DNA from: Draconibacterium orientale
GTDB lineage: Bacteria; Bacteroidota; Bacteroidia; Bacteroidales; UBA1556
Direction of reading: 5' to 3'
DNA: 42,446 bases
NCBI GenBank assembly: GCA_020718275.1
Contig: DYSI01000010.1
Coordinates: 1 to 42,446, forward strand
Made by a program: the position numbers and the translations under genes. A model generated the notes under the pieces. That model saw only the letters and a program-made list of their open reading frames with translations. It was not told where the DNA came from and made no database searches. How positions within the stretch are numbered: the first letter of the stretch is position 1; each line of letters starts with the position of its first letter. Positions 4,604 through 42,446 of the stretch are shown one piece after another.

Positions 4604-5575
4604 TTATTTAGTTCGATTGATAGTGTAGTCCACTAAACCGATCAAGGCTGTTTTATAGGTCGAGTCTTCAAAATCGGCAAGTAACAAACGTGCTTCATCC
4701 AGCTTTTCTTGCATTTTCTGTTGAGCATAAGCAATTCCTCCCGATTGGTTTACTTTGGTAAGGATATTTTCTAAACTAGCTTTATGATTGCTGTTAAACT
4801 TTATTTCGAGAATGGTTTTCTTGCGTTCGAGCAGACTCATTTGGTTGAGGGTAAAAATTAGAGGGAGGGTCATTTTCTTCTCTTTGATATCGGCGCCGGT
4901 GGGTTTTCCTATGTTGTTTGATTTTTCGTAATCAAATAAGTCGTCCCTAATTTGAAAAGCGATACCTACTAATTCACCAAATCGTTGCATCTTGAGGGTT
5001 TGTACTTGGTCAGCGCCAGCAGAAACGGCACCTGCGGCACAACAACTGGCAATGAGGGAGGCTGTTTTCATCCGAATTACATCAAAATAAATCTCTTCGG
5101 TAATGTCCAATCTTCTAGCTTTTTCGATTTGAAGCAGCTCGCCTTCACTCATTTGTTTTGTGGCGTGCGATACTATTTCAAGTAATTGATACTCTTTGTT
5201 CTCCAAGGCTAATAGCATTCCTTTTGAAAGTAGAAAATCACCTACCAAAACCGCTGCTTTATTTTTCCATAGGGCATTAATGGAGAAAAACCCCCGGCGA
5301 AGATTCGAATCATCCACCACATCATCGTGTACGAGTGTTGCTGTATGCAATAGTTCGATTAATGCAGCTGCTCTTTGGGTGTGTTCGTTGCTTGGCCCGA
5401 AAAGTCCAGCACTCAGAAATACAAACATGGGTCGCATTTGCTTGCCCTTGCGCTTGATAATGTATCGAGTGATAAGGTCAAGCAGCGGAATCGCACTTTT
5501 CATACTTGCTTTAAAGGTGGCCTCAAAGGTCTCTAACTCTTGATTTATAGGCTGTTTTATCTCTTCAAATGTCAT
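4604..5575 (-). CDS. Polyprenyl (trans-type) diphosphate synthase
   Basis: It makes a long-chain isoprenyl diphosphate by repeated addition of IPP, giving the quinone side chain. In Bacteroidota this is usually the menaquinone tail, by family inference. With the start at 5575 the protein has 323 residues. The first aspartate-rich motif is HDDVVDD (D84-D88) followed by LRRG, the second is QIRDDLFDY (D211-D215), and GKQMRP near residue 44 is the IPP-binding region. I chose ATG at 5575 because the upstream extension (to 5614) begins with TTG and adds 13 Gln/His-rich residues not expected in the family, whereas MTFEEIKQPI is the usual beginning. It ends 12 bases before the MORN-repeat gene starts and may share its transcript. 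The diverging hemerythrin gene starts about 120 bases away. Confidence 0.93.
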   Translation of the reverse strand: MTFEEIKQPINQELETFEATFKASMKSAIPLLDLITRYIIKRKGKQMRPMFVFLSAGLFGPSNEHTQRAAALIELLHTATLVHDDVVDDSNLRRGFFSINALWKNKAAVLVGDFLLSKGMLLALENKEYQLLEIVSHATKQMSEGELLQIEKARRLDITEEIYFDVIRMKTASLIASCCAAGAVSAGADQVQTLKMQRFGELVGIAFQIRDDLFDYEKSNNIGKPTGADIKEKKMTLPLIFTLNQMSLLERKKTILEIKFNSNHKASLENILTKVNQSGGIAYAQQKMQEKLDEARLLLADFEDSTYKTALIGLVDYTINRTK

Positions 5576-5694: not shown

Positions 5695-6435
5695 ATGATT
5701 GTAACGGCAAGCATGAAAATGGCTGATTTGATAATTCAGAATCACCATTTACTTTCGATCATTGATCGTTTTGGAATTCAGATAGGCATTGGTGAACGTA
5801 CTATCGCCGAGGTTTGCGAACAACATCAGATTCCTGTTGATTTTTTTCTTGAAATAGTAAACGCTTTTAATGATCCAAGTTTCTTTCCAAAAAGGAATCT
5901 TGACTCCTTTCCATTGCACCTTATTGTAAGCTATTTATTCAAAACGCATAGTTTTTATTTGGAATTAAAGATTCCTGAAATCGAAAGGTTGATTAAAAAG
6001 CTACTCGATTCAGAAAAGCCTGAAACTGTTCGAGTGGCATCGCTAATTTTTAATTTTTTCTCCACCTACACCAGTCAATTGCGTGACCATATAGCTCGTG
6101 AAGAAAAAATTGTGTATCCCTATATTCTGAAATTAGAAGAGGTGTACGAATCCAAAGATTCAGCGGTTATGGAAACATTTAGAAAGGAGTTTCAGTTTAC
6201 TATCGATGAGTATGAACGGGATCATGAAGATATCGAAGAAAAGCTGTACGATATTAAGAGTTTGATTATTAAGTATGTACTGCCTGGTGAGGATTATTTG
6301 ACATATTATAAAATATTAGGACAGATTGATCATTTGGAGCAGGATATCAACGATCATACAGAGATGGAAAATAAAGTGCTGATTCCGCGGGTACGGATGA
6401 TGGAATCCTTTCTAAACCAACGCACTGGCCAATGA
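5695..6435 (+). CDS. Hemerythrin-domain protein with ScdA/DUF542-like N-terminus
   Basis: A 246-residue soluble protein in two parts. Residues 7-50 (MKMADLIIQNHHLLSIIDRFG ... AEVCEQHQI, with Cys41) resemble the N-terminal segment of ScdA/YtfE iron-sulfur repair proteins. Residues 80-235 form an HHE-type four-helix bundle with candidate di-iron ligands H85, H132 and E136/E137 (DHIAREE), H177 (ERDHED), and H221/E225 (DHTEMEN). Family members bind O2, NO or iron and repair or sense damage to Fe-S centres. The stop overlaps the next gene's start by 4 bases (ATGA), so the two are translationally coupled and probably act together. ATG at 5695 is used; ATG at 5713 is an alternative. I infer an O2/NO/iron-responsive role; the exact activity is unknown. 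Confidence 0.85.
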   Translation: MIVTASMKMADLIIQNHHLLSIIDRFGIQIGIGERTIAEVCEQHQIPVDFFLEIVNAFNDPSFFPKRNLDSFPLHLIVSYLFKTHSFYLELKIPEIERLIKKLLDSEKPETVRVASLIFNFFSTYTSQLRDHIAREEKIVYPYILKLEEVYESKDSAVMETFRKEFQFTIDEYERDHEDIEEKLYDIKSLIIKYVLPGEDYLTYYKILGQIDHLEQDINDHTEMENKVLIPRVRMMESFLNQRTGQ

Positions 6436-7031
6436 GCAATTTTCAGATAGTAGTGCTTACAGAATCTTTTGTGCTGAATAAGGGATTTCAGGTGATTTTG
6501 AATAGAATTCGTGGAGTGAGTAGGGTCGATATTGCGCAAAATTTTGCGGAGCTGCAAGCCATTATGGATCAAAAAAACGTTCAGATGATTTTGGTTAGCG
6601 AGAAGCTTCTGGCCGAGGATGCGCACATTTATAAAATTTATAAAACGGCTAAGGACATACGCTGGGGGCTTATTACCGCCACTACTGATGAACTGCAAAG
6701 AGGCTTTACTTTTGATTTACAAATAGATGTGTATGAGGACGAACAGAAAGTGCTTTCCAAAATTAGCCAATTTGTTGAAAGCATCACCACAGCTATCCCA
6801 CTTCCCACTGAAACAGAACTTAGTGAACGTGAAAAGGAAGTTTTAAAACAAGTTGCACTTGGGTTTACTAATTTCGAAATTGGTGAAAAATTGTTTATCA
6901 GTCAACATACGGTTATTGCCCACCGTAAAAACATCACGCATAAACTTGGTATCAAAACTATCTCAGGATTAACTGTTTATGCTGTTTTGAATAATTTAAT
7001 TGAAATGGGTGAGCTTAATTCGTTAAAATAA
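6432..7031 (+). CDS. LuxR-family transcriptional regulator with a pseudo-receiver domain
   Basis: A 199-residue DNA-binding protein. Residues 130-190 are a clear GerE/LuxR helix-turn-helix (LSEREKEVLKQVALGFTNFE, then ISQHTVIAHRKNI as recognition helix). Residues 1-115 have the size and strand pattern of a response-regulator receiver, but the position expected to hold the phosphorylated Asp reads MILVSEKLL, with Ser, and the N-terminal acidic pair is absent (VVLTES). It is therefore unlikely to be controlled by a histidine kinase; none is nearby. Its start overlaps the hemerythrin stop by 4 bases, suggesting that the hemerythrin protein is its sensor or target. Similar pairs occur in other Bacteroidota. 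The regulon is unknown; the 434-base gap downstream is a possible target region. Confidence 0.87.
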   Translation: MSNFQIVVLTESFVLNKGFQVILNRIRGVSRVDIAQNFAELQAIMDQKNVQMILVSEKLLAEDAHIYKIYKTAKDIRWGLITATTDELQRGFTFDLQIDVYEDEQKVLSKISQFVESITTAIPLPTETELSEREKEVLKQVALGFTNFEIGEKLFISQHTVIAHRKNITHKLGIKTISGLTVYAVLNNLIEMGELNSLK

Positions 7032-16515: not shown

Positions 16516-17364
16516 ATGAAGAAAATATTTTTTTACTTAATGGTAGCAATGCTTTTCACAGCATGCAACAATAGTAAAGGTGGCGAAGAAGTTACAGCCG
16601 CTGACAGCACCATGACCGTGGATAGCCTATTGGGAAGTATTGAAACTTTAGTAGGTCAACAAATCACCGTAATAGGAAGAGTGGATCACGTTTGCAAACA
16701 CGGTGGAACCAAAATGGTGATTTATACCAGTAATCCTGAAAATGGCCTACATATCAATGCCACCGATGAATCTGGCAATTTTAGAGCAGACGAAATGATG
16801 GACGAAACTGTTCGTGTTGTTGGGAAAGTAAGCGAATTTCGCGTTGATGATGGCTATATTGCTGAATTAGAATCTGTATTGGAAACTAAAAAAGCCGAAG
16901 GACCAAGCAAAGAGGAGCCAGCAACTGCAAAAAAAGAAGAACATCATGATGGTAATTTCCCTGATGCTGATAGCAAACACAAACAAGAAGTGGAAGGTTT
17001 GGAAAACCAAATCACTAGGTTAAAAACTCAATTAGAGGAAGCTCGTGCAAATGGAAAAGACCACTTATCATTCTATTCGGTTGATTGTGTTTCCTATAGC
17101 ATAGTCGAAGGAAGCGGAAAGATTGAAGCTAGCGCAGATACTACCGTGGTTGATGAACCAGTTGGACACCAAGAATCTGCTGTTGAAATGGAAGCTGATA
17201 AGAAAGAAGCAACCACTGTTAAAAAAGAAGTAGAGAAAAAAGCAGAAACTGCTGTGCAAACAGAAGGCGGAAAAAAAGTTGAAGCAAGTGACAAAATGAA
17301 ATCTAGTGTAAAACAAGAAGTGGGTAAAAAAACTAAACCCGCTCAAGGTGGCGAAATCAAATAA
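16516..17364 (+). CDS. Lipoprotein with OB-fold-like domain and Lys/Glu-rich tail
   Basis: A 282-residue lipoprotein: the lipobox is MLFTAC, with Cys17 the lipidated residue, followed by Asn-Asn. Residues 38-120 have the strand pattern of an OB fold (QQITVIGRVDHVCKHGGTKM, then LHINATDESGNF and ETVRVVGKVSEFRVDDGYI), similar to small tRNA-anti-like domains seen in other Bacteroidota lipoproteins; in the periplasm it more likely binds a small ligand or metal than RNA. The pair C61-K-H63 is a possible metal site. Residues 155-180 (EVEGLENQITRLKTQLEEAR) are a short coiled coil. The last 80 residues are low-complexity Lys/Glu/Ala, probably disordered and perhaps envelope-spanning. A very strong hairpin terminator follows. 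Confidence 0.7.
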   Translation: MKKIFFYLMVAMLFTACNNSKGGEEVTAADSTMTVDSLLGSIETLVGQQITVIGRVDHVCKHGGTKMVIYTSNPENGLHINATDESGNFRADEMMDETVRVVGKVSEFRVDDGYIAELESVLETKKAEGPSKEEPATAKKEEHHDGNFPDADSKHKQEVEGLENQITRLKTQLEEARANGKDHLSFYSVDCVSYSIVEGSGKIEASADTTVVDEPVGHQESAVEMEADKKEATTVKKEVEKKAETAVQTEGGKKVEASDKMKSSVKQEVGKKTKPAQGGEIK

Positions 17365-17385: not shown

Positions 17386-17449
17386 AGCTGTCGAAATACC
17401 CTGAACTTTATCTTTTAAGCAATGAAGGTATTTCGACAGCTTTTTATTT
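17386..17449 (+). terminator. Strong rho-independent terminator
   Basis: AGCTGTCGAAATACC (17386-17400) and GGTATTTCGACAGCT (17427-17441) are perfect 15-base complements with a 26-base loop, followed by TTTTATTT. It separates the lipoprotein from the PepSY-type gene that begins at 17459. Confidence 0.85.
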
Positions 17450-18129: not shown

Positions 18130-18156
18130 TAGTCAAATCAATTCGCAGCGAACATT

Positions 18157-19995
18157 ATGATAATGCACAAAGACAAATATTCGGATCGTAAATTTATTAT
18201 TTACGGTTTTTTTATTTTTGTGGGTTTTTCATTCATAATCAGGCTATTATATTTACAGGTTTTAGATAATGAATATGCTTATGCTGCTGATAATAATGCG
18301 CGCAGAGATATAACGGTATACCCTCCTCGCGGTCTTATCTATGATCGAAATGGCGAGCTTATGGTTTACAACGAAGCTGTTTTTGATTTAATGGTTGTTC
18401 CCGGTCAGGTGAAAGATATTGATGAGGAAATGCTATGTCAATTGCTTGAAATCGACTATGAGGATTATCAAAAGCGGTTTAAAAAAGCCAAGAAATTCAG
18501 TTCGCGTAAAGCTAGTATTTTCGAGAAACAGTTATCCAAAACCCAAACGGCCTATTTGCAAGAAAAGCTGTATCAGTTTCCAGGGTTCTATGTGCAAGCG
18601 CGTACTTTGCGCAAGTATCCCAGTGCCAGCGCGGCTCACTTATTAGGCTATATTGCGGAAGTTAATGATAAGGAACTTAGCAGCGATTGCTTTTATGCGT
18701 CGGGTGATTACATTGGCAAAAGTGGAATTGAAAAATCGTATGAAAAAAACCTAAGAGGGCAGAAAGGCATCAAAAAGCTTTTGGTCGATGTTTATAATCG
18801 CGAAAAGGGTGCTTTTCATGAAGGGCAGTTTGATGTGCCTGCCGTAAACGGACAGAAACTCTATACTGGCATTGACCTTGAAATGCAAATGTATGGTGAG
18901 CTACTCATGCAAAATAAAATTGGCGCAATAGTAGCCATAGAACCTCAAACTGGTGAAATACTGGCCATGATAAGTTCCCCAACTTACGACCCCAATAAAT
19001 TAGTTGGCAGAATACGCTCGGCAAATTACAGCACCTTACTTGTGGACACCTTGAAACCACTGATAAATAGGTCACTAACCTCATCCTATCCTCCTGGGTC
19101 AACTTTTAAATTAGCACAGGCCTTAATTGGGCAGCAAGAAAAAGTGCTGAATAATAATACCATTTACACTTGCAATGGTGGTTTTCATTATGGTGGATTG
19201 ACTGTAGGATGTCACCCGCACAATCCAAATCTTAATCTGCAAGAATCAATCATGATTTCCTGCAATGCATATTATTGCAACGTTTACCGCTCTGTGATTG
19301 AAAATCCTATCTATAGAAATTCTGAGGCGGGTTATCGAAAATGGCGCGAATACATCACTAAATTGGGATTTGGAGTTAAATATGGAATTGATTTGCCTTA
19401 CGAAACCACTGGTAACATCCCCAAGCCCGAATACTACGATAAGTATTACGGTAAAGGACATTGGAATTCGATAACGACCATTTCATTGGCCATTGGCCAG
19501 GGTGAAATTTTGGCTACGCCCTTGCAATTAGCTAATTTAGCTGCTTTAATTGCCAATCGTGGGTATTATATTACGCCCCATCTTGTGGCTCAAGTTGGGG
19601 ATTCGACTAAAAGAAATGCACTCTATACTAAAAAGAATCAAAGCGGAATAGACCCCCGATATTTTGAGGTAGTGATTAATGGGATGGAAGATGTGGTAAT
19701 GAAAGGCACAGCTCGCTCTGCTTTTATTGATAGCATAAGCGTATGCGGAAAAACTGGGACAGCCCAAAATCCACATGGCGAAAATCACTCGGTATTTATT
19801 GCTTTTGCGCCAAAGGAAAATCCTAAAATTGCCATTGCTGTATTTATCGAAAACTCTGGTTACGGCGGAACCTGGGCAGCTCCTATTGCCAGTTTAATGA
19901 TCGAAAAGTATCTTAAAGGATATATCAATAGCGCTCGATTGCCTATTGAAAAACGAATGTTGGAGGGAAATTTAATCAACTACCATGCGAGATAG
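18157..19995 (+). CDS. mrdA: Penicillin-binding protein 2 (elongasome transpeptidase)
   Basis: Cross-links peptidoglycan during lateral-wall growth, in partnership with RodA. The 612-residue protein has one N-terminal membrane helix (about 13-33), the PBP dimerisation domain (YPPRGLIYDRNGELM), and the transpeptidase domain with all three catalytic motifs: S315-T-F-K318 (PPGSTFK), S368-C-N370, and K532-T-G534 (CGKTGTAQN). The YIGKSGIEKSYE segment is typical of class B PBPs. Its last 11 bases overlap the start of rodA, a classic coupling. Unlike in many genomes, mreB, mreC and mreD are not immediately upstream; the preceding gene is a PepSY-type protein. ATG at 18157 is used; ATG at 18163 would remove two residues only. 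Confidence 0.96.
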   Translation: MIMHKDKYSDRKFIIYGFFIFVGFSFIIRLLYLQVLDNEYAYAADNNARRDITVYPPRGLIYDRNGELMVYNEAVFDLMVVPGQVKDIDEEMLCQLLEIDYEDYQKRFKKAKKFSSRKASIFEKQLSKTQTAYLQEKLYQFPGFYVQARTLRKYPSASAAHLLGYIAEVNDKELSSDCFYASGDYIGKSGIEKSYEKNLRGQKGIKKLLVDVYNREKGAFHEGQFDVPAVNGQKLYTGIDLEMQMYGELLMQNKIGAIVAIEPQTGEILAMISSPTYDPNKLVGRIRSANYSTLLVDTLKPLINRSLTSSYPPGSTFKLAQALIGQQEKVLNNNTIYTCNGGFHYGGLTVGCHPHNPNLNLQESIMISCNAYYCNVYRSVIENPIYRNSEAGYRKWREYITKLGFGVKYGIDLPYETTGNIPKPEYYDKYYGKGHWNSITTISLAIGQGEILATPLQLANLAALIANRGYYITPHLVAQVGDSTKRNALYTKKNQSGIDPRYFEVVINGMEDVVMKGTARSAFIDSISVCGKTGTAQNPHGENHSVFIAFAPKENPKIAIAVFIENSGYGGTWAAPIASLMIEKYLKGYINSARLPIEKRMLEGNLINYHAR

Positions 19996-40741: not shown

Positions 40742-40914
40742 AATATTTTTTCTTTGCTAAGAGCAATATTTTTTGATTATTGCAGCGCTAATCTGAATGG
40801 GATAAAATTGAATAGGTTTGTTTGTTGTTTAATGCTCAAGCTATGCTAGTATTTTTTAAGATATATCTTTTCTTCGGCTAGCAGATTTCCATTGGCATCG
40901 GTGAAAATATAAGT

Positions 40915-41358
40915 CTAGGTTTGCTTGTCGAACATTAGATAATCAACAGTATAAGTTACTAAACTAATTTCACCGGCTGAATTTCCAGCAGGGGCATTGC
41001 TAAAAATTAATTGCTGGTCGGTAGCCGTTACTGGCGCCCATGTAATAGGTGTATTGGATGGAATAAATGACCAACCTGCAAATCTTCCACCTACTAAGTT
41101 ATAGGATAAACTATGATACTCTAAATCAGGATGCTCAAAGAGTAGACTCAGCGTTCCTAAGTCAGTTTCTGTGTGGGTACGGTCCAGTACCGTTCCTTTA
41201 TTAGAATAGTATTTTAACTCATATTTATAAACATCATAGACGCCTGCAAATTTTTCGCCATTTAGGATTTCTTTTTCACAAGTAGGCAAGGTAATAAGGA
41301 TGCTCAATAGGGCTAGCAATCGAAATATTAGCGAATTGAAAAATATTTTTGACCTCAT
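40915..41358 (-). CDS. Lipoprotein-like protein of unknown function, cut short by an in-frame TAG
   Basis: The open part gives 147 residues: a hydrophobic N-terminus (SLIFRLLALLSILITLPTC) that could be a lipoprotein signal with Cys at about 27, then a beta-rich body with no domain I recognise (FAGVYDVYKYELKYY, YNLVGGRFAGWSF). The frame stops at TAG 40915-40917 after MFDKQT, but the next 22 codons in the same frame continue as sensible protein (TYIFTDANGNLLAEEK, ending KKY) up to a TAG at 40846-40848. A Trp codon TGG in place of the first TAG would give the natural-looking QTWTYIF. So the intact gene was probably 40846-41358. Real nonsense mutation, readthrough or base error cannot be told apart here. 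Confidence 0.6.
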   Translation of the reverse strand: MRSKIFFNSLIFRLLALLSILITLPTCEKEILNGEKFAGVYDVYKYELKYYSNKGTVLDRTHTETDLGTLSLLFEHPDLEYHSLSYNLVGGRFAGWSFIPSNTPITWAPVTATDQQLIFSNAPAGNSAGEISLVTYTVDYLMFDKQT

Positions 41359-41379
41359 TTTATCTATTTTTATTCAGTG

Positions 41380-41439
41380 TTGTCCGATAAAAAAACTACT
41401 AAATTGCCGAAATGGACTAAATTAATTTTTAACGGACAA
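41380..41439. repeat. 60-base element with near-perfect terminal inverted repeats
   Basis: TTGTCCGATAAAAA (41380-) and its inverse TTTTTAACGGACAA (to 41439) match at 13 of 14 positions and bound about 32 bases of non-coding sequence. AGTG lies directly outside the left arm and one base outside the right arm, which could be a target duplication. It may be a miniature transposable element or an insertion sequence remnant between two genes, or a pair of regulator sites. No transposase gene is present. Confidence 0.45.
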
Positions 41440-41448
41440 TAGTGATTT

Positions 41449-42231
41449 TTATTTAGTGTTAATCAAATTATAGCTTAGACCAATCTGCATTTCAAATTTT
41501 AGGGCGTTTGGCTTAACATACTCATCATCATAGTTATAGGCGTAGCCTCCATTTACATAGGCTCCATAGTCAACTGGTAAATATTCCATCGGATAGGTAG
41601 AACTGACACTTCTGATAAAGCTATGAAATTCCAACTGCGATACAAAAGCTGTAAAACTTAGCGCTGCCCGAGCATAAAAATTGACTCTTGTATTCAGGGC
41701 ATAATTGAGTTTATATTCCAGTCCTAATTCGGAAGTGAATGCATCAAAAATCCCATTCAATTCTTTCTCGCTACCAAGTGATCTTGTGTTGTTTGGATAC
41801 TTAAAGCTACTTTCGATGGCAGTGTTTCCGATCCCAATTATCGCGCCTAAATAGCTGTTAGTCTTATCATTTTGCGTTATTTGTATGCTCGAATCTGTTT
41901 TAAAAACTCGTAATTTGCACTAAAAAGTTCTTGTTCCTTGCGCTATTTCGAATTTCTGTTTTAGACCAGTATAGTTGATAAATCCTACATCAAAAGCCAA
42001 ATAGTCGTAGTCCAGAATTAATCCGTATCCATACCCATAGCGCATTTTAGAATGTTCTCGCACTTCTTTGGAAGGGGAATTAAAGCTTGAATAGCTGTCC
42101 AAAAATGATTGATAACCTTTATTTGAAAGCATCGAGATGCCGAGTCCTCCCTAGAGTTCTAGTTTTATGTCTTGCGATTTTACTGCGTTTGTCAAGACCA
42201 TTAGCAGCAAAAAAACGATGGCTTTATTCAT
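41449..42231 (-). pseudogene. Outer-membrane beta-barrel-like gene interrupted by two in-frame TAG codons
   Basis: Read in one frame from ATG 42231 to TAA 41449 it encodes 260 positions: signal peptide (NKAIVFLLLMVLTNAVKSQ), then Gly/aromatic alternating strands typical of an outer membrane barrel (YGYGYGLILDYDYLAFDVGF, LNTRVNFYARAALSFTAFVS, ALKFEMQIGLSYNLI). TAG occurs at 42151-42153 (after QDIKLEL) and 41920-41922 (after QGTRTF); no frameshift is needed to join the three pieces, and the sequence after each TAG still looks like protein. The pieces 41920-42132 and 41449-41760 are therefore parts of one gene. Decay, amber readthrough or sequence error are the options. Function otherwise unknown. 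Confidence 0.6.
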
Positions 42232-42267: not shown

Positions 42268-42446
42268 TTATATTTTTACTAAGATAGAAGCAGCTGTTCT
42301 ATAAGGATTTATGCTTATCATATCCAAAGAGTTGGTTATAATTACATCTCCAGCAAAAATGCTCCTACTATGTTCTAATCGGAAAGTTAGTAGTTTAGTG
42401 ATATTGTATTGGAAAATCAAATTCCGATCGATACTGGTATAATGCG
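42268..42446 (-). CDS. 3' end of an unidentified gene running off the window
   Basis: From the window edge the frame is open for 58 codons (HYTSIDRNLIFQYNITKLL ... YRTAASILVKI) to TAA at 42268-42270. Alternating hydrophobic residues and the final strand SILVKI suggest an outer membrane barrel or other beta protein, but no family is recognised. Its stop is 36 bases from the start of the barrel-like pseudogene, so both may share a transcript. Confidence 0.5.
   Translation of the reverse strand, partial: HYTSIDRNLIFQYNITKLLTFRLEHSRSIFAGDVIITNSLDMISINPYRTAASILVKI

Follow-up and report, generated by a model that had tools for sequence, protein, structure and literature searches.

Organisation of the locus

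The DNA analysed here, a 42,446-nucleotide stretch of Draconibacterium orientale that we refer to as the window, carries near one contig end two adjacent genes on the minus strand whose reading frames contain in-frame TAG codons. The first, which we call the barrel-like gene, is a 260-codon frame (41449..42231) running from an ATG at 42231 to its own TAA stop at 41451-41449, and it contains TAG at codon 27 (42153-42151) and again at codon 104 (41922-41920). The second, the lipoprotein-like gene, is a 170-codon frame (40846..41358) that starts with an ATG at 41358 and ends at its own TAG stop at 40848-40846, with the third in-frame TAG at codon 148 (40917-40915). The gap between them holds a 70-bp MITE-like insertion on the same strand with imperfect inverted ends (41375..41444), flanked by the 9-bp direct repeat AATAAAAAT, and upstream of the pair lies the 3' end of a further minus-strand gene (42268..42444; 58 codons and a TAA) whose frame stays open up to the contig end. 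Neither gene shows a frameshift: the locus has TAG stops without an indel, and the MITE-like insertion in the intergenic gap. The original prediction had placed in-frame TAGs at 42151, 41920 and 40915 with zero frameshifts, and the positions are exact.

Two internal stops interrupt the coding frame of the barrel-like gene, where each of the five alternative frames has 15 to 25; for the lipoprotein-like gene the figures are one and 10 to 17; because the other frames are so rich in stops (10 to 25 each), the open frames of both genes are not due to chance. Per-codon coding scores of the two genes fall within the range of other open reading frames (ORFs), at percentiles 25.9 and 67.4 of 680. Both proteins have only sub-threshold matches in Pfam, and nearly identical sequence was sought in 72,556 plasmid records without a match. 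The structure model of the barrel-like protein is unusable (mean pLDDT 33.5), and 'barrel-like' is used here as a putative label.

An intact gene pair in a relative

Intact homologues of both genes adjoin in the same order in G003, a genome of the same genus (contig C24, 17329-18102 for the barrel-like gene and 18144-18611 for the lipoprotein-like gene), with 40% and 44% identity respectively. The barrel-like alignment has gaps in 5 of 263 columns. Since G003 has the two genes side by side without stops, the frames beyond each TAG are real. None of the homologues among the matches listed, in G003 or elsewhere, has a stop. The gene end at the contig edge is identical to the end of a G003 protein at 18 of 57 positions (E 7e-8 in a single comparison), and it is the counterpart of the 232-amino-acid gene that precedes the pair in that genome.

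Identity to G003 along the barrel-like protein is 4/25 before TAG27, 23/76 between the two TAGs and 77/155 after TAG104, and the part beyond TAG104 therefore does not look worn, which counts against decay. Along the lipoprotein-like protein, identity is 64/137 upstream of the TAG and 7/23 downstream. With one close homologue only, at 40% and 44% identity, synonymous sites are taken as saturated. The pieces could also be viewed as separate short genes restarted after each TAG, and later in-frame starts do exist, such as that of a 103-amino-acid ORF at 41449-41760; however, the intact barrel-like homologue in G003 is a single 261-residue protein, and the pieces beyond the stops, as judged by eye, are without a signal-peptide-like start, so that we give this arrangement almost no credence.

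Members of this pair are scarce. The barrel-like protein has matches in three of 98 other genomes, one of which (G003) is close, and the lipoprotein-like protein has a match in one of the 98, again G003. A profile search with the barrel-like protein across 393 genomes of the order, own genome and G003 included, found seven with a match, corresponding to six of 392 others, and a scan of genome contigs returned only the G003 contig and one distant relative. Because so few genomes have a match, the pair is rare and accessory.

The original prediction had also looked to relatives for the residue standing at each TAG and for conservation of the frame beyond it; the frame after each TAG is conserved in G003, and four relatives (G003, G149, G166 and G313) could be aligned across the barrel-like sites, alignment rows G036a, G037 and G036b being left out as wrong or partial pieces. 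F, Y, S and Y stand opposite TAG27 and N, D, D and D opposite TAG104, and the third TAG is opposite I in one relative, G003, in a poorly aligned stretch. As the opposite residues differ among the three sites, no single decoding fits, although the relatives are few.

TAG as a terminator and the question of recoding

The genome assembly is partial, with 1,965,669 bases in 80 contigs and a completeness of 71.22%, and we sampled 80 pieces totalling 1,235,866 bases (63% of the genome). The 680 non-overlapping ORFs of at least 200 codons in this sample end in TAA (463), TAG (153) and TGA (64), and the TAG share is like that in samples of two genomes of the same genus (43/201 and 52/218). Where an own gene matches one in the relatives' sample at 45% identity or more, its end falls no more than five residues from the homologue's end in 21/21 TAG, 62/70 TAA and 8/8 TGA genes. 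Coding-looking in-frame extensions past the stop follow 11/151 TAG and 36/458 TAA codons, and on reading are mostly tandem genes. The usual share of TAG together with the conserved ends indicates that TAG terminates normally here. Within the window, seven of the 32 ORFs with tabulated stops end in TAG, the Sir2 gene being outside that table. Genome-wide recoding, which had been argued against at the outset, is thus opposed both by the 153 of 680 ORFs that TAG ends and by all 21 of the testable genes having it at a conserved end.

A genome-wide change in the meaning of TAG could have been helped by loss of release factor 1: no match to prfA (RF1) rises above the cut-off here, whereas prfA is above cut-off in all ten of the other genomes of the genus. 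The single release-factor match in this genome scores 238.6 bits and is taken to be prfB. In nine of the ten relatives prfA is flanked by a purM-like gene and pyrF, one on either side, and in the tenth it has the purM-like gene alone, the locus being cut by a contig end. (The purM-like gene scores 109.2 bits against TIGR00878, under the cut-off of 236.35, and pyrF is over its cut-off.) Searches of the D. orientale assembly for the purM-like gene and pyrF, which had no separate positive control, found neither, and the 25 tRNA matches leave Ala, Asn, Cys, His, Ile and Lys unrepresented. With the neighbours of prfA and six kinds of tRNA also missing, the assembly is incomplete and these genes are probably just missing from it. 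In the strict homology survey described below, moreover, no in-frame TAG within conserved codons lies outside this window, and we consider a genome-wide change in the meaning of TAG exceedingly unlikely. As a main reading TAG recoding was rejected, with stop usage, conserved C-termini, the conserved-codon TAG and the opposite residues all against it. A search for an amber suppressor had been suggested at the outset: there is no CTA anticodon among the 25 tRNA matches (150 of 165 candidates scored), but the six absent kinds of tRNA limit what this says.

Loss of RF1 by local deletion was also considered. A gene named ilvE in NCBIfam adjoins pyrF in two of the ten relatives' loci, and the ilvE of D. 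orientale (contig C62) is followed by a 3910-residue ORF (piece L104, 431-12160) with a signal-peptide-like start. This ORF stands where the two relatives have pyrF, prfA and the purM-like gene. The outer neighbours vary among the relatives, so the ilvE context decides nothing.

Other apparently broken genes

Elsewhere in the 1.236 Mb sampled, six more genes look broken and together contain 12 stops, five TAG, four TAA and three TGA. A TPR gene (L057 in contig C18, 4868-6941) has TAA at 5039 and TAG at 5204 and 5273, recognised by coding score and reading. A PAS gene (L072 in C29, 1-666) has TAG at 567 and 498, on the same basis, and TGA at 381, which the PAS match spans. A gene that matches SpoIIE and, below the cut-off, dCache (L065 in C22, 16959-18923) has TAA at 17361 and TGA at 17388, again by coding score and reading, and a gene with a below-cut-off NAD-binding match (L089 in C47, 2179-2802) has TAG at 2550 and TGA at 2577, both inside the match. 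The remaining two are homology-supported TAA stops from the strict survey, at 4657 of L086 (C44), opposite Q, and at 3208 of L097 (C55), opposite Y. Several of the six are signalling proteins by their Pfam matches (TPR and kinase, PAS, SpoIIE). The TPR frame in C18 ends at 6259 and HisKA and HATPase_c lie in another frame at 6237-6941, an apparent frameshift as we read this TPR/histidine-kinase junction, or possibly two overlapping genes.

These loci were assembled from several surveys. The strict homology survey compared 623 relatives' ORFs with 108,858 own codons and yielded three internal stops: the TAG of the lipoprotein-like gene and the TAAs in L086 and L097. Both barrel-like TAGs fall below its flank criterion and are present in a relaxed list of 30 stops (18 TAA, 8 TAG, 4 TGA), most of which lie at alignment ends or in weak alignments; from that list only the three stops of the window and the two TAAs in L086 and L097 were used. 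The same survey gave no frameshift-like junctions in own genes, a point against decay, and one in relatives (G004, at a piece end). A coding-score scan listed 14 rows, of which five were kept (L057 5204, L065 17361, L072 567 and 498, and L089 2550). The nine dropped, six TAA (L070, L073, L079, L082, L085 and L106), one TGA (L080) and two TAG (L091 and L112), looked like two neighbouring genes in one frame, low-complexity or antisense sequence, and in L091 and L112 the protein was judged by eye to end at the TAG. To the five were added L057 5039 TAA and 5273 TAG, L072 381 TGA, L065 17388 TGA and L089 2577 TGA, and the two homology-supported TAAs. The remaining rows of a 37-row coding-score list were left out, L109 3364 TGA after inspection.

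The reverse homology survey, with relatives as the subject, found no internal stops in 94,621 aligned codons, and the coding-score stop scan gave no such row in the relatives' sample of 788,020 bases, such that this genome seems richer in broken genes than the relatives' sample. A purM-like gene split over two frames is present in one relative (G009, L133 2579-3621), which indicates that the relatives' assemblies also hold breaks or errors.

How surprising are three TAGs of three?

With codons used as in the sampled genes, nonsense changes arising at random are expected to be TAG, TAA and TGA in proportions of 0.294, 0.489 and 0.218, nearly independently of the transition rate, and under mutation biased to A and T the TAG proportion is about 0.27 to 0.28. 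Three nonsense changes would all be TAG with a probability of about 0.025, and would all be alike, of any kind, with a probability of about 0.15, the latter being what would have drawn remark. The original prediction had held that random decay should mix its stops and add indels, so that three TAGs of three are notable. This argument is not supported: stops are mixed in the six other apparently broken genes, one of which has an apparent frameshift as well, and agreement of this sort arises by chance about 15% of the time.

Outside the window, five or more TAGs among 12 has a probability of about 0.26. Five of these 12 stops have homology across the stop (the two TAAs, the L072 TGA and the two in L089), one of them TAG, and seven were identified by coding score and reading alone (three in L057, two in L065 and two in L072), four of them TAG. 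When the window is combined with the six loci, eight of 15 stops are TAG (P about 0.045 against the expected 0.294), three of the eight coming from the window itself. A mild TAG excess is thus left over all 15 stops and counts against the chance reading. If TAG termination were leaky, owing to a weak or lost RF1 or to a suppressor tRNA in the unassembled part of the genome, amber codons might accumulate in weakly expressed accessory genes, with TAG still ending most genes, and the mild excess (8/15) would be its trace; we regard this as highly improbable.

Local readthrough requires that the TAGs be read as sense at low efficiency, giving full-length protein at a low level. The conserved frames past the TAGs and the coding scores in the normal range would both agree with it, and published work (PMC7918605) describes conserved in-frame stops in other bacteria for which dN/dS is below 1 and readthrough of this sort has been proposed. 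No CTA anticodon is among the tRNAs found, however; the residues opposite the three sites are unlike (F, Y, S, Y; N, D, D, D; I), no homologue among the matches listed has a stop, and the other broken genes carry TAA and TGA as well as TAG. Nothing found points to readthrough, and we think it very unlikely.

Contig ends and base error

The distance to the nearest contig end averages 2.7 kb for the seven broken loci (range 0.5 to 5.2 kb), compared with a sample median of 5.4 kb, and random draws come as near with a probability of about 0.009 with the window and 0.024 without it, in a test devised after the data were seen. This nearness favours base or assembly errors and, no less, a tendency of contigs to break where the sequence is variable and decaying. 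On the former account low coverage or a mixture of strains in the metagenome assembly would have led to consensus mistakes at the stops, and the organism itself would have intact genes. In its favour, the assembly is partial (80 contigs, 71.22% complete), the window's TAGs are within about 1.6 kb of a contig end, and the changes in the two genes are substitutions only, with no indels. Conserved genes, though, are mostly clean, with the three strict internal stops in 108,858 own codons including one in the window; three nonsense errors within 1.4 kb would imply, as we estimate it, that several per cent of the bases there were wrongly substituted; and the conserved blocks of the barrel-like protein are intact. 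Base or assembly error is in our view an unlikely source of the three stops, albeit one to be taken seriously.

Interpretation and comparison with known systems

We consider that the locus is probably a rare accessory gene pair in recent nonsense decay, or else an inactive copy of such a pair that segregates locally. The two genes, with their signal-peptide-like starts, would be rare accessory genes that were recently inactivated. Nonsense substitutions would end translation of the barrel-like gene after 26 codons and cost the lipoprotein-like protein the last 23 of its 170 codons, the stop position included, and a MITE-like element would also have inserted between the two genes. The loss would be recent enough for frames and coding composition still to be intact, and all three stops would be TAG by chance. 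The stops, the intact relative, the mixture of stops in other apparently broken genes and the normal use of TAG as a terminator are all observed, whereas we infer that the organism really has these changes, that function is lost through them, and the order in which they arose. The original prediction had left decay, local readthrough and base error as options, and all three are retained, with the weights given above.

Bacterial nonsense pseudogenes are among the closest known systems, sharing with this locus in-frame stops against an intact homologue, membership of rare accessory genes, and a mixture of stops across the genome; they differ in that here all three stops are of one kind and there is no indel, as chance and a recent origin would allow. 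In-frame stops in bacterial genes, as pseudogenes or as readthrough candidates, are already in print, and Belinky et al. 2021 (PMC7918605) describe conserved in-frame stops with suspected readthrough, which share with this locus an in-frame TAG in a frame that still looks coding, in genes without other degradation. In that work the stop is common to at least two species, with dN/dS below 1, and here no listed homologue shares a stop. Stop-codon-recoded phages, among them some crAss-like phages, are likewise reported to have in-frame TAG in several genes; unlike them, the present genome has TAG as a normal terminator with its usual share, a single locus among ordinary genes, and no suppressor tRNA found.

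Nothing at this locus is of a new kind, and its reach beyond this genome is small: a small run of identical stops can mimic recoding. The case also shows how broken genes elsewhere in the genome, the conserved ends of genes and the residues facing the stops help in weighing a claim of recoding. Should readthrough of these stops prove genuine, the pair would offer a natural setting for testing leaky amber termination within the group.

The MITE-like element

The element between the two genes belongs to a family whose inverted ends start CACTATTGTCCGTTAAAA and whose full copies are 70 to 72 bp. The D. orientale genome has 45 matches to it, some of them partial (for example in L103, L099 and L105). 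The sample contains 20 full elements, 18 of which are flanked by 9-bp repeats that agree at every position or at all but one, and among 21 listed places none has an ORF of at least 200 codons hit by the element. Neither a transposase nor a parent transposon was found for it. End fragments of at most 34 bases are present in five of the ten other genomes of the genus, with none in the rest (the G001 search scored 40 of its 51 candidates). Among the genomes compared, that of D. orientale alone yielded full copies, and the family looks, from this distribution, to have spread recently in this lineage.
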